This document shows, piece by piece, positions 1 to 35,752 of a DNA stretch of 41,763 bases. The stretch's first letter is position 1. The number at the start of each line of letters is the position of its first letter. The notes beneath the pieces were generated by a model. That model ran no database searches and was not told where the DNA came from. It saw only the letters and a program-made list of their open reading frames with translations. This stretch comes from Tychonema sp. LEGE 06208 (GTDB taxonomy: Bacteria > Cyanobacteriota > Cyanobacteriia > Cyanobacteriales > Microcoleaceae): positions 1 through 41,763 of the forward strand of contig NZ_JADEWT010000052.1 of assembly GCF_015207505.1 (NCBI RefSeq), in the 5' to 3' direction. The translations under genes and the position numbers were made by a program.

Positions 1-287
1 GAATTGCCTTCTCCAACAAGCGTTGGTTGCACTTCTTCATGCTGTTCGTACCTGTCACAGGCTTGTGGATGAGCTCCATTGGCATCGTTGGTTTAGCATT
101 AAACCTGCGCGCCTATGACTTCGTTTCTCAAGAATTGCGCGCGGCTGAAGATCCTGAGTTTGAAACGTTCTACACTAAGAACATTCTGATTAACGAAGGT
201 ATTCGTGCTTGGATGGCTCCGATCGACCAACCTCACGAAAACTTCATGTTCCCAGAAGAAGTTCTTCCTCGCGGTAACGCACTTTAA
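1..287 (+). CDS. psbD: Photosystem II D2 protein, C-terminal part (cut by window start)
   Basis: The reading frame is open from base 3 and ends in TAA at 287. It encodes about 94 residues of the D2 reaction-centre protein, starting [12 protein letters not shown] and ending [10 protein letters not shown]. This part covers the last transmembrane helix and the lumenal C-terminus, where D2 helps to bind the acceptor-side iron, plastoquinone QA and the chlorophyll special pair. The 5' part lies outside the window. In most cyanobacteria the psbD end overlaps the psbC start. Here the copy ends 156 bases before psbC, and its CGCGGT codons have lost the GTG that would start psbC. It may therefore be a second-type psbD, or a copy displaced from an ancestral overlap. 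The identity is certain from the sequence; the history is inference. Confidence 0.97.
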
Positions 288-354
288 AAAAATCAGGATT
301 TGGATTTCAGATTAATTTAAGTTTTTTAAATTCTAATTGGAAATCCAAATACCT

Positions 355-397
355 GTGCCTCGGGCGATCGCGGTGAACCCGCGATCGCCCGAGGCAC
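355..397. repeat. Perfect 19-bp hairpin between psbD and psbC
   Basis: Bases 355-373 pair without mismatch with 379-397, leaving the 5-base loop TGAAC. Each arm carries a GCGATCGC (HIP1) octamer. The hairpin is followed by seven A residues, not T, so it is not a classic rho-independent terminator for psbD. It could slow or end transcription, protect the psbD 3' end, or set the psbD:psbC ratio. Its function is unknown. Confidence 0.85.
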
Positions 398-429
398 AAA
401 AAAACCAAAATCCCAAAACTAACATCGTT

Positions 430-460
430 GGAGGTTCTACCGCGTGGTAACGCTCTCTAA
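430..460 (+). promoter_or_regulatory. psbC ribosome-binding site inside a remnant psbD tail
   Basis: GGAGG at 430-434 lies nine bases before the GTG start of psbC at 444. Read in another frame, 431-460 encodes EVLPRGNAL and a TAA stop, the exact D2 C-terminus. It uses different synonymous codons from the complete psbD end at 258-287. Upstream of the Glu codon the D2 similarity stops. The segment appears to be what is left of a second psbD that once overlapped psbC, kept because it holds the psbC initiation signals. Confidence 0.85.
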
Positions 461-1823
461 TTCCTATGTAAGCGGTCGCGACCAAGAATCCTCTGGGTTC
501 GCTTGGTGGTCTGGCAACGCTCGTTTAATCAATCTCTCCGGCAAACTGTTGGGCGCACACGTGGCTCACGCTGGTTTGATCGTGTTCTGGGCCGGAGCAA
601 TGACTTTGTTTGAAGTCGCTCACTTTATCCCAGAAAAGCCCATGTACGAACAGGGGTTAATTTTGATGCCCCACGTCGCTACTTTGGGTTGGGGCGTCGG
701 CCCTGGCGGTGAAGTCATTGATATCTTCCCGTTCTTCGTAGTCGGCGTTCTTCACTTGATTTCATCTGCTGTTCTCGGTTTGGGCGGCATTTATCACGCC
801 GTTCGCGGCCCGGAAGTTCTCGAAGAATATTCTTCATTCTTCGGCTACGACTGGAAAGACAAAAACCAGATGACCAACATCATCGGTTATCACCTGATTT
901 TATTGGGTGGCGGCTGCTTGCTGCTGGTTGCTAAAGCCATGTTCTTCGGCGGTGTCTACGACACTTGGGCTCCGGGCGGCGGCGACGTGCGTATTATCAC
1001 GAACCCCACTCTAAATCCTGCCGTGATTTTTGGCTATTTGACTCGTTCTCCTTGGGGTGGCGAAGGCTGGATTGTCAGCGTCAACAACATGGAAGACATC
1101 ATCGGCGGTCACATCTGGCTCGGCTTGATTTGTATCGGTGGCGGTGTTTGGCACATTTTGACCAAGCCTTTCGGCTGGGCTCGCCGTGCCTTAATCTGGT
1201 CTGGTGAAGCTTACCTGTCCTACAGCTTGGGCGCTTTGTCCCTGATGGGTTTCATCGCCGCCTGCTTTGTCTGGTTCAACAACACTGCTTACCCTAGCGA
1301 ATTTTACGGCCCGACGGGCCCGGAAGCTTCTCAAGCACAAGCTTTGACCTTCCTGATCCGCGACCAACGCTTGGGTGCTAACGTCGGCTCTGCACAAGGC
1401 CCTACCGGTCTGGGTAAGTATCTGATGCGCTCTCCTACTGGCGAAATCATTTTCGGCGGTGAAACGATGCGTTTCTGGGATTTCCAAGGCCCTTGGTTGG
1501 AACCCTTGCGCGGTACTAACGGTTTGGACTTGAACAAAATCAAAAACGATATTCAGCCTTGGCAAGCTCGCCGCGCTGCTGAATACATGACTCACGCTCC
1601 TTTGGGTTCTTTGAACTCTGTGGGCGGCGTGGCAACTGAAGTTAACTCGTTTAACTTCACGTCTCCTCGTTCTTGGTTGGCCTGTTTCCACTTCGTGGTG
1701 GGTTTCTTCTTCTTGGTCGGCCACTTGTGGCACGCGGGTCGCGCTCGCGCTGCTGTTGCTGGTTTTGAGAGAGGTATCGATCGCGAAAATGAAGCGGTAC
1801 TTTCTATGCCTGACTTGGACTAA
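444..1823 (+). CDS. psbC: Photosystem II CP43 chlorophyll-binding protein
   Basis: The 459-residue product is full length for CP43, the inner antenna protein that passes excitation to the photosystem II reaction centre and whose lumenal loop helps to ligate the oxygen-evolving cluster. The start is GTG, read as MVTLSN, which matches other cyanobacterial CP43 N-termini, and it has GGAGG nine bases upstream. Visible family blocks are [12 protein letters not shown] (residues 11-22), the long lumenal loop with [12 protein letters not shown] and [14 protein letters not shown], and the His-rich last helix ending [12 protein letters not shown]. It follows psbD in the same direction but does not overlap it, which is unusual. 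A strong terminator follows 34 bases after the stop. Confidence 0.98.
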
Positions 1824-1857: not shown

Positions 1858-1894
1858 AAAAAAAAGCTCCTGCGGTTAAGCAGGAGCTTTTTTT
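1858..1894. terminator. Rho-independent terminator after psbC
   Basis: The stem GCTCCTG/CAGGAGC encloses an 8-base loop and is flanked by eight A on the left and seven T on the right. It can therefore work in both directions. It closes the psbD-psbC unit. Confidence 0.93.
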
Positions 1895-2367
1895 GAGTAA
1901 ATATAGCAGAAGGAAATTCGGCAACGAGCCATGTACGGGATGTAACGGATGGATGGATGGAACAAGAAAGAAGCAATAGACTGCATGGCTTTGGGCAATC
2001 AAGAACGTCCTAACTCTCAGGACGCTACATCGCATAAAAATTGGTGTTACGGTCGATCGACCGTTTTATAAATAATTCTGCAAGTCTTGACACTTGACAT
2101 TTTTCATGCTTTAGGGTAAAGAGCTTGCAAGGCCGGGTCTACAAAGTTTATATTTAATTAAGGTACAAAAGTTTTAATCGCACAAAATTGAAAAAAGTCA
2201 TCAGAAGTTGCTGTTTGAAGGCAGCTCGGTAGCGGTACAAAACAAATCGACGATTGTTCTCAGGATATTCATATTTTTGATTAAATAACTGTGCTTGACA
2301 ATTTTTTAAACACGCACAAAACTTTTGAGCCGCTTACTCTTATTGCTGGGAAAGCAAAAAATTAATA
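1895..2367. other. Gene-free stretch upstream of the multi-GAF kinase
   Basis: I see no convincing ORF. It holds a perfect 16-bp palindrome, ACGGTCGATCGACCGT, at 2049-2064, and two overlapping TTGACA hexamers at 2087-2092 and 2094-2099 that could serve as a -35 element for the kinase gene. No good -10 box is placed 17 bases downstream, so the promoter call is weak. Confidence 0.4.
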
Positions 2368-6183: not shown

Positions 6184-6486
6184 TCAATAGTCATTAGTTG
6201 TTAGTTGTTATTGGTTAGTTGTTATTGTTTAGTTGTTATTGTTTAGTTGTTATTGGTTAGTTGTTATTGGTTAGTTGTTATTGGTTAGTTGTTATTGGTA
6301 ATTAGAACGAACAACTAATAATTAACAAATAACCACTGACCACTAAAAACAGTCAACAGTCAACAGTCAGCAGTCAGCAGTCAACAGTCAACAGTCAACA
6401 GTCATCAGTCATCAGTCAACAGTCAACAGTCAACAGTCATTAGTCATCAGTCATCAGTCATCAGTCATTAGTCATCAGTCATTAGT
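6184..6486. repeat. Two adjoining tandem repeat blocks
   Basis: From about 6196 to 6300 a roughly 14-base unit, TTAGTTGTTATTGG with T/G variants, is repeated about seven times. From about 6349 to 6486 a heptamer, CAGTCAA with CAGTCAT and CAGTCAG variants, is repeated. Such heptanucleotide arrays (STRR type) are common between genes in filamentous cyanobacteria. There are no spacers, so this is not CRISPR. Confidence 0.9.
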
Positions 6487-6499
6487 GTTGTCCTCCCCG

Positions 6500-6584: not shown

Positions 6585-6956
6585 AACAGTCCCCTGGCCG
6601 CATTATGCAATACGAGGTTGAAGATGTGGGGGATGCGGAAGCATTTGAGGAAGAGTGTGCGGCGTTACCAGATTTTTCAGCAATGTTTGAATCACTTTGA
6701 AGAGTTGGTGATATAATAAAAAACCTTCAGCTTAAAGCCGAAGGTTGTCATCAGGGTGCATCTACTTGTTCTATATTCATTGGGGATTGAGTTGGATCAG
6801 GAAGAAGTGAGGGTATTGTGGCAAAGATTGCTTAACGAGTAATATCAATAGGTTTAGCGATCGCTGTTTTCTACAGCATTACTTCACCGATAGACTTGCG
6901 ACGCTTGGTGTAGATGGGCTTGTGCGACTGCCCGTGTCTCTCCCTATGATTTGATG
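6585..6956. other. Intergenic stretch with gene-fragment-like ORFs
   Basis: A 31-codon ORF at 6605-6700 (MQYEVEDVGDAEAFEEE...) and an open frame ending at about 6842 (LGIELDQEEVRVLWQRLLNE) look like pieces of decayed genes because of their protein-like composition. Neither has a recognised family. A short hairpin with AACCTTC/GAAGGTT arms lies at about 6722-6746. Confidence 0.3.
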
Positions 6957-17383: not shown

Positions 17384-18991
<1,608 letters not shown>

Positions 18992-26707: not shown

Positions 26708-27027
26708 GGGGCTGTGGCTCAGATGGATAGAGCAAGCGCCTCCTGAAGAATCGGGCACCCTGCGAGGAAACTCTGGGAGTGAATGTGGTCAAACTCAAGG
26801 AAGCCTAAGTCTGACGGCAGATAAGGTAATCTTGAGCCAAGCTTTATCTAAATTTAGGTAAAGAAGGTGCAGAGACTGGCTTTAGGAAGTAAAACACAAT
26901 AAAACCTCCTAAACATACGGCCACCACCTAAAGGCTGCAAGCCTATGGTGAAGGAATAGTCCGGAGAGTGGGGAAACTCACACAAATCTGAAGCGCTAGG
27001 TCGCCGGTTCGAACCCGGCCAGTCCCG
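26708..27027 (+). tRNA. tRNA-Arg(CCU), split by a group I intron
   Basis: Exon 1 is 26708-26744 and exon 2 is 26991-27027. Joined, they give a 74-base tRNA: acceptor stem GGGGCTG/CAGTCCC with discriminator G and one G-U pair, D stem GCTC/GAGC, anticodon stem AGCGC/GCGCT, loop CTCCTAA with anticodon CCT at 26742-26744 and A37, and T arm GCCGG-TTCGAAC-CCGGC. CCA is not encoded. It reads AGG codons. The exon ends were fixed by the anticodon stem: only the junction after T36 with the intron ending in G gives a 7-base loop and five paired bases. Confidence 0.94.
26745..26990 (+). ncRNA. Group I intron in tRNA-Arg(CCU)
   Basis: This is a 246-base intron between positions 36 and 37 of the tRNA, with U before the 5' splice site and G as last base. 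The conserved core is visible: CTCAAG (P, 26794-26799) pairs with CTTGAG (Q, 26831-26836) as P4; the R element GTGCAGAGACT lies at 26877-26887; and the S element AAGGAATAGTCC lies at 26951-26962, with AGACT/AGTCC forming P7. GGGAG at 26775-26779 can pair with exon CTCCT including the required G-U, a candidate guide sequence. It has no ORF or homing endonuclease. Similar introns at this site are known from some alphaproteobacteria and cyanobacteria. Confidence 0.9.
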
Positions 27028-35395: not shown

Positions 35396-35671
35396 TCCTT
35401 AGTCCTTAGTCCGTAGTCCTTAGTCCGTAGTCCTTAGTCCGTAGTCAGTAGTCCTTAGTCCTTAGTCCGTAGTCAGTAGTCAGTAGGTAGGGGCGGTGCC
35501 AAGAGTGCCAACCCTCTTAACAGTTAACAGTCAACAGTCAACAGTCAACAGTCAGCAGTCAACAGTCAGCAGTCAACAGTCAACAGTCAGCAGTCAACAG
35601 TCAACAGTCAACAGTCAACAGTCAACAGTCAACAGTCAACAGTCAACAGTCAGCAGTCAACAGTCAACAGT
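35396..35671. repeat. Two heptamer arrays before rpsP
   Basis: About 35396-35486 consists of TAGTCCT/TAGTCCG/TAGTCAG heptamers. About 35520-35671 consists of CAGTCAA with CAGTCAG variants, more than twenty units. The second has the same unit as the array at 6349-6486. Confidence 0.92.
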
Positions 35672-35752
35672 TGCTGTGAATGCCCCAGAGCATAATGTGA
35701 GATTTCTGGCCTGGAGTATGTCACAATTGAGCCAGGACTATTGTGCAAGAAG

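Follow-up and report, generated by a model that had tools for sequence, protein, structure and literature searches.

Genes and features at the psbD-psbC junction

The window analyzed here, i.e., the whole stretch of 41,763 nucleotides, represents contig C180 of a 6.55 Mb genome comprising 232 contigs. At its 5' end, the following features were recorded:

3..287, + strand: psbD (D2), last 94 codons; 3' part only, the contig begins within the gene
285-287, + strand: psbD stop codon
288..430, + strand: psbD-psbC spacer, homologous within the clade defined below and absent from overlapping relatives
295..354, + strand: stem-loop A, AT-rich (GGATTTGGATTTCAG...AAATCCAAATACC), 25 predicted pairs
355..397, + strand: stem-loop B, 19-bp GC-rich stem not followed by a T-run; pairing mostly kept between species despite sequence change
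398..421, + strand: A-rich leader that the predicted fold leaves unpaired
422..469, + strand: third predicted helix, 17 pairs, in which the psbC Shine-Dalgarno sequence is paired
430..434, + strand: GGAGG, the psbC Shine-Dalgarno sequence, 9 nt before the GTG
431..460, + strand: relic psbD tail (from its psbD-frame reading), now psbC leader and first codons
444..1823, + strand: psbC (CP43), 459 aa, GTG start at 444-446
1858..1895, + strand: hairpin and T-run 3' of psbC, a probable intrinsic terminator (read by eye)

As in the overlapping psbDC operon, psbD is located immediately 5' of psbC on the same strand. The overlap itself is absent, as the earlier note had pointed out: psbD ends at 287 and the psbC GTG follows at 444, leaving 156 nt between stop and start, so that psbC does not begin within psbD. 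Likewise, the psbC Shine-Dalgarno sequence is not contained in the C-terminal codons of D2 but in the relic; psbD carries GAAGTTCT at the corresponding place, and its tail (GAAGTTCTTCCTCGCGGTAACGCACTTTAA) lacks both the psbC Shine-Dalgarno sequence and the GTG. In all 13 overlapping relatives listed, GAGG occurs at a spacing identical to that in the window. The nearest named psbC relatives, among the best 80 of 496 psbC-type loci, belong to Tychonema and Microcoleus (98% protein identity). The layout recurs in relatives, including L025 in the complete chromosome NZ_CP031705.1, which makes an assembly artefact improbable.

The end of a second, near-identical psbD was found on contig C30 of the same genome, where the earlier note had suggested searching for further copies. 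The first 127 nt of the window are identical to the start of C30, and the two genes differ at four positions in the 287 nt up to the stop. The 5' part of the window's psbD is most likely located on contig C170, whose upstream leader resembles, by eye, that of the psbDC copies of relatives.

Screening against Rfam 15 yielded no match over the gathering score in 288-443, and the four matches in the window all lie outside the spacer. Within psbC, IsrR (the antisense RNA of isiA) was matched in antisense orientation at 852-1038 (- strand, 159.8 bits), likely because psbC and isiA are homologous, although a real antisense RNA could be present. A HEARO RNA (17494-17713, + strand) directly precedes an ORF of 383 aa (17840-18991, + strand), an arrangement that we take to be typical of IscB-type RNA-guided nucleases. 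Furthermore, a Group I intron was assigned by Rfam to 26732-26983 (+ strand); regarding its host gene, ARAGORN found no tRNA in the window. NsiR1 is a heterocyst-linked sRNA; the NsiR1-like match at 6716-6767 (- strand, 46.5 bits at a cut-off of 39), placed over a short hairpin, is either odd in this setting or a chance hairpin. A long run of short tandem repeats of the TTGTTATTGGTTAG and CAGTCAACAGTCAT types was seen by eye at 6200-6490.

Split and overlapping junctions among cyanobacteria

In the part of the literature source considered, the psbD-psbC overlap is portrayed as a conserved trait of cyanobacteria and plastids that lacks an explanation, and the supplementary table of that source may list exceptions (PMC8047818). 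No split psbD-psbC pair in cyanobacteria appeared in the titles and abstract beginnings found in the open-licence literature. In a genome scan, the best 80 of 496 psbC-type loci were kept and sorted by the position of the psbD stop. These 80 comprise 50 overlapping and 22 split loci, four with a decayed psbD before psbC, three Okeania loci with a short in-frame psbD tail and one locus without psbD upstream (L030). The split loci are L008-L026 (19 loci) together with those of Kamptonema (L028), Symplocastrum (L052) and a Coleofasciculus MAG (L059). The window and L008-L026, carrying names such as Microcoleus, Tychonema, Lyngbya, Oscillatoriales and similar, are referred to as the clade (20 loci, L030 being left out of the count). 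All 20 are split, with 82-154 nt from the psbD stop to the GGAGG. The spacing highlighted in the earlier note is therefore common to the clade and not unique to the window genome, yet the tail relic is kept in these relatives.

Beyond the clade, a loose overlap-like motif was present in 316 of 388 genomes of the wider class, a count that does not measure the frequency of overlap because the motif accepts any CGN and also catches psbD2 copies and the split genomes G226 and G398. Of the 72 genomes lacking the motif, 46 were searched, and three with the motif were added. At a threshold of E 1e-60, 35 of these 49 genomes gave a psbC-type match, and 30 psbC loci were read from the set: 26 split, three overlapping and one unreadable, which gives no frequency since the genomes were picked mostly for absence of the motif. 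Among the overlapping loci, L152, with no more than 31 nt of psbD on its contig, received its label manually. Counted together with loci from a further search, the split loci represent 13 family codes other than f1.

To follow the two arrangements, a quick tree was built from psbC alone (106 rows), with the decayed cases scored as non-overlapping and the Okeania fragments as overlapping; left out were 12 of L008-L030, the duplicates L205 and L153, L179 (psbC unread) and the same-genus loci L088-L109. On this tree, the overlap/split label changes at least nine times, three of these changes being forced by starred branches, with 42 of the 103 inner branches weak. The relics described below point to a direction from overlap to split. 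These results show that the split is not a quirk of the window genome but recurs in several other cyanobacterial groups.

Another route to non-overlap is represented by three Trichodesmium loci and one Okeania locus, in which a stop-bearing psbD remnant runs directly into the psbC Shine-Dalgarno sequence and GTG. In two of these Trichodesmium loci, an earlier piece of psbD lies close upstream, implying an internal deletion, and a stop-free psbD frame of 301-370 codons was found elsewhere in all three genomes of this type that were searched. Decay of the upstream psbD fits the Trichodesmium and the single Okeania cases. Applied to the Microcoleus clade, it would mean that the psbD beside psbC was lost or pseudogenised, that its tail became the psbC leader and that an intact psbD later re-landed upstream. 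Such a history appears unlikely there: psbD occupies the same place in 20/20 loci, in the seven loci whose upstream DNA suffices (L010, L014, L015, L016, L018, L020, L025), its frame stays open over 337-353 codons up to the tail motif, and re-landing at the same spot requires an extra event.

The Okeania loci L060 and L077 contain only approximately 50-70 in-frame psbD codons before psbC, with unrelated DNA upstream, and represent either fresh truncations or misassemblies (an N is located within L077). Stop-bearing partial copies of the psbC C-terminal region were also observed (G018:C1:2212779-2212985 and G009:C460:14-139), the former approximately 3.3 kb beyond psbC.

The relic psbD tail and the second psbD copy

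In the psbD frame, positions 431-460 read EVLPRGNAL* (asterisk, stop), identical to the psbD tail at all ten positions, with the psbC GGAGG and GTG embedded, as the earlier note had read from the letters. The alternative that this reading is a by-product of the psbC start was evaluated in 20,000 draws in which GAGG, GTG and the psbC codons were fixed and uniform random bases placed between them. These fixed elements alone guarantee six of the ten residues, but all ten were obtained in only 0.04% of draws; when GAGG and GTG alone were held constant, scores of 1-3 of 10 made up 91% of draws. Moreover, psbC leaders of groups f49 (nine loci scored) and f32 (three loci scored) reach 1-5 of 10, refuting the notion that any psbC start would match psbD. 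A by-product is accordingly hardly credible, and the earlier proposal that psbC starts within a relic psbD tail is supported.

Within the clade, the relic reading is complete (10/10) in 12 of 20 loci and has one changed residue in the other eight, so that coding for D2 is apparently no longer selected. In total, 38 non-overlapping loci were scored in the psbD frame. EVLPRGNAL* was also found in the leader of L052, followed by EVLPSGNAL* in Kamptonema, EVLRRGNAL* in L114, EVIPCGNAL* in L174, EVLPCANIL* in L113, EVLPRANVI* in L116 and EVKPRDNIVQ in L155, and the lowest score was 1 of 10 (L169, L176). Judged from this series, many psbC leaders read as decaying psbD tails.

The earlier note had attributed loss of the psbC start in the complete psbD to CGC replacing CGT. 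This replacement is seen in the window but does not extend across the clade, in which 12 of 20 copies carry CGC and eight CGT; the loss common to all 20 clade psbD copies concerns the Shine-Dalgarno sequence (GAAGTTCT in place of GAGGT). Since psbD2 copies of overlap genomes carry CGC in 7/8 pairs, CGC belongs to an ordinary psbD2-type tail.

Concerted evolution of two psbD copies, near-identical and located at conserved places per genome, is known from the part of the study considered (PMC6053082). Two strong psbD-tail matches were obtained in 11 of the 12 genomes of the genus searched and one match in G022; besides the window genome, a near-identical second psbD was confirmed over the gene in seven relatives. 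The copy next to psbC (psbD1) and the stand-alone copy (psbD2) were then compared. Outside the last 33 nt, they differ at 46 of 7,039 sites in eight overlap genomes (with only a portion of psbD compared in G100 and G225) and at 53 of 7,161 sites in seven split genomes. Within the last 33 nt, 43 of 264 sites differ in overlap pairs and 17 of 231 in split pairs. Thus, 43 of the 89 differences in overlap genomes sit in this short stretch, and the block from Shine-Dalgarno sequence to start (nt 12-32 from the end) shows 27 differences in the eight overlap pairs versus three in the seven split pairs. G121, being split, is not among the overlap pairs, and the comparison excludes the third, divergent copies of psbD in G382 and G186. 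In the window, the upstream psbD tail equals that of psbD2 at 29/30 nt, and the two tails at the junction differ from each other at 6/30.

Based on these findings, we consider it probable that an unequal conversion templated by psbD2 disrupted an ancestral overlap, that the former tail persisted as the psbC ribosome-binding site, and that psbC now initiates independently. The psbDC dicistron of the clade would descend from the usual overlapping arrangement, in which gene conversion would keep the psbD next to psbC near-identical to the stand-alone gene. In an unequal event, the upstream gene would gain a psbD2-type tail while the old tail stays downstream, and the DNA between the new and old tails would become the spacer. 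The old tail would then be kept only where psbC needs it, namely at the GGAGG, the 9-nt spacing, the GTG and the first codons. The earlier note had proposed a duplication or replacement of psbD, after which the original copy was lost apart from its tail; the replacement part is consistent with the psbD2-type tail. As both psbD copies persist and are near-identical, a conversion that spared the old tail accounts for the data better than such a loss.

Some observations weigh against conversion. Near the psbD stop, differences are somewhat over-represented in split genomes as well (17 in 231 nt; p 0.003 by Fisher test relative to the remainder of the gene), and selection on psbC alone would likewise keep the overlap block different. 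The spacer was additionally considered as donated psbD2 3' flank; this candidate was rejected, since local alignment scores between the two fall within those of shuffles in 8/8 genomes, and no donor of the spacer is therefore seen.

Alternatively, a mobile hairpin element inserted at the junction, or a short tandem duplication there, could have split the genes. Largely palindromic, the spacer lies between two psbD-tail copies that could represent a duplicated target, and several short, partial matches to its A-rich part (approximately query 113-140) exist at other places. However, among the 48 matches of the spacer to its own genome at E 10 or better, no second full copy was found; the best match outside the spacer covers 38 nt (E 8e-4), and the core of hairpin B is unique, for which reasons a mobile element was rejected. 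The differences between the two junction tails and the similarity of the upstream one to psbD2 also speak against insertion or duplication, which together are considered distinctly unlikely. The 15-mer TTTGGATTTCAGATT occurs twice in the genome, its second site having no hairpin partner by eye.

In genus g92, the psbD tail is duplicated, and the junctions of G151 and G121 were counted in favour of conversion. G151 contains a psbD end, a spacer, a second, longer relic carrying the psbC Shine-Dalgarno sequence, and psbC; in G311, the psbD end and spacer are followed by a relic shifted in frame; and G121 contains a psbD end, 99 nt, a relic and psbC, the last preceded by a leader of its own. Counting against conversion, the middle relic in G121 agrees with the intact tail at only 27/36 nt and with the psbD profile over the last 19 positions (E 0.013; 14.7 bits versus an NCBIfam cut-off of 600.6). 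At this locus (L202), 44 in-frame codons directly after the psbD stop include a hydrophobic segment and end in the relic psbD tail. They possibly encode a small membrane protein that captured a psbD tail; a search of the stretch against Pfam gave no match.

Spacer RNA, psbC initiation and known systems

The hairpin reported at 355-397 in the earlier note, where it was put forward as a possible substitute for translational coupling of D2 and CP43, is present. For region 285-470, a fold of -77 kcal/mol (z -9.7) was predicted, making the spacer the most structured of 144 window samples, three of which, the spacer among them, reach z -4. Among non-coding stretches, 10 of 61 reach this value, the spacer included; the second most structured non-coding stretch sampled lies at 35534-35676 (z -8.35). 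Conservation of the structure was evaluated by RNAalifold on alignment A1, comprising 19 clade spacers (18 distinct; L019, L028 and L030 left out). In the resulting structure, 93.1% of cells are paired versus 88.7% in shuffled alignments (reached by 0/500 shuffles); slid controls gave 30-56%. The covariation score of 0.227 versus 0.150 was likewise reached by 0/500 shuffles. Prediction of the structure from the same clade alignment favours it in these comparisons. Seven pairs changed on both sides, a count reached by 49/500 shuffles, and the count of further pair types was reached by 136/500. Among 32 folded split-type spacers, which are not independent since 13 stem from the clade, 28 are at z <= -2.4 (exceptions: L011, L165, L169 and L174) and 19 at z <= -4.

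Strong stem-loops between psbD and psbC might act as an intrinsic terminator, or the spacer as an internal promoter, uncoupling psbC transcription. This possibility is rated very unlikely: a GC-rich stem followed by a T-run is not present, an A-rich stretch following stem B and no T-run following either stem, and a consensus scan of the spacer detected neither terminator-like nor sigma-70-like sites, a weak negative given that the scan missed the likely terminator after psbC, perhaps because the T-run of the latter can pair with an A-run before its stem. Within the conversion scenario, the two stem-loops are most likely an RNA stability or processing element that would let D2 and CP43 output differ.

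Regarding psbC initiation, ribosomes ending psbD would halt 142 nt before the Shine-Dalgarno sequence, so psbC presumably must start from its own ribosome-binding site. The mean predicted unpaired probability of the GAGG is 0.13 in 20 clade loci versus 0.14 in 24 overlap loci, and with the full spacer it amounts to 0.02 in the window. The predicted masking helix (422-469) is thus retained, though the psbD ribosome is no longer expected to reach it. The idea that the spacer stems leave the Shine-Dalgarno sequence open is contradicted by the fold, in which the GGAGG is paired in the third helix. Such predicted masking counts against easy independent initiation. In the overlapping form, the psbD ribosome would open the helix; in the split form, something else would have to do so, perhaps binding at A-rich 398-421, a possible ribosome standby site at which ribosomes may wait.

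A more general model, which we put forward tentatively and with somewhat less than even confidence, regards the overlap as a barrier to psbD conversion: crossings would repeatedly break the overlap and leave a fossil tail as ribosome-binding site, and a non-terminator stem-loop would take over balancing of D2 and CP43. The overlap has been lost several times and the relics are at different stages of decay, providing natural experiments on its role. Nature thereby offers tests of the need for D2-CP43 coupling, of the opening of a masked Shine-Dalgarno sequence without overlap, and of conversion versus overlap constraints.

Among known systems, the tobacco frame overlap is thought to allow partial coupling, although coupling is no strict requirement there, given that psbC additionally possesses a transcript of its own (PMC8133689, part considered). 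The concerted-evolution system comprises two near-identical psbD copies, as here; psbC has no occurrence in the main text of that study, so the psbC start is not linked to concerted evolution there (PMC6053082). The decayed Trichodesmium leaders found here resemble the window in keeping a psbD tail as psbC leader, but differ in that intact psbD is absent upstream of psbC. The closest comparison is the overlapping psbD-psbC dicistron of cyanobacteria and plastids, with which the window shares gene order, strand, GTG, Shine-Dalgarno sequence and spacing, the N-terminus MVTLSN and the predicted masking, a like masking being predicted for overlapping relatives; it differs in having 156 nt from stop to GTG in place of the overlap, with Shine-Dalgarno sequence and start residing in the relic.
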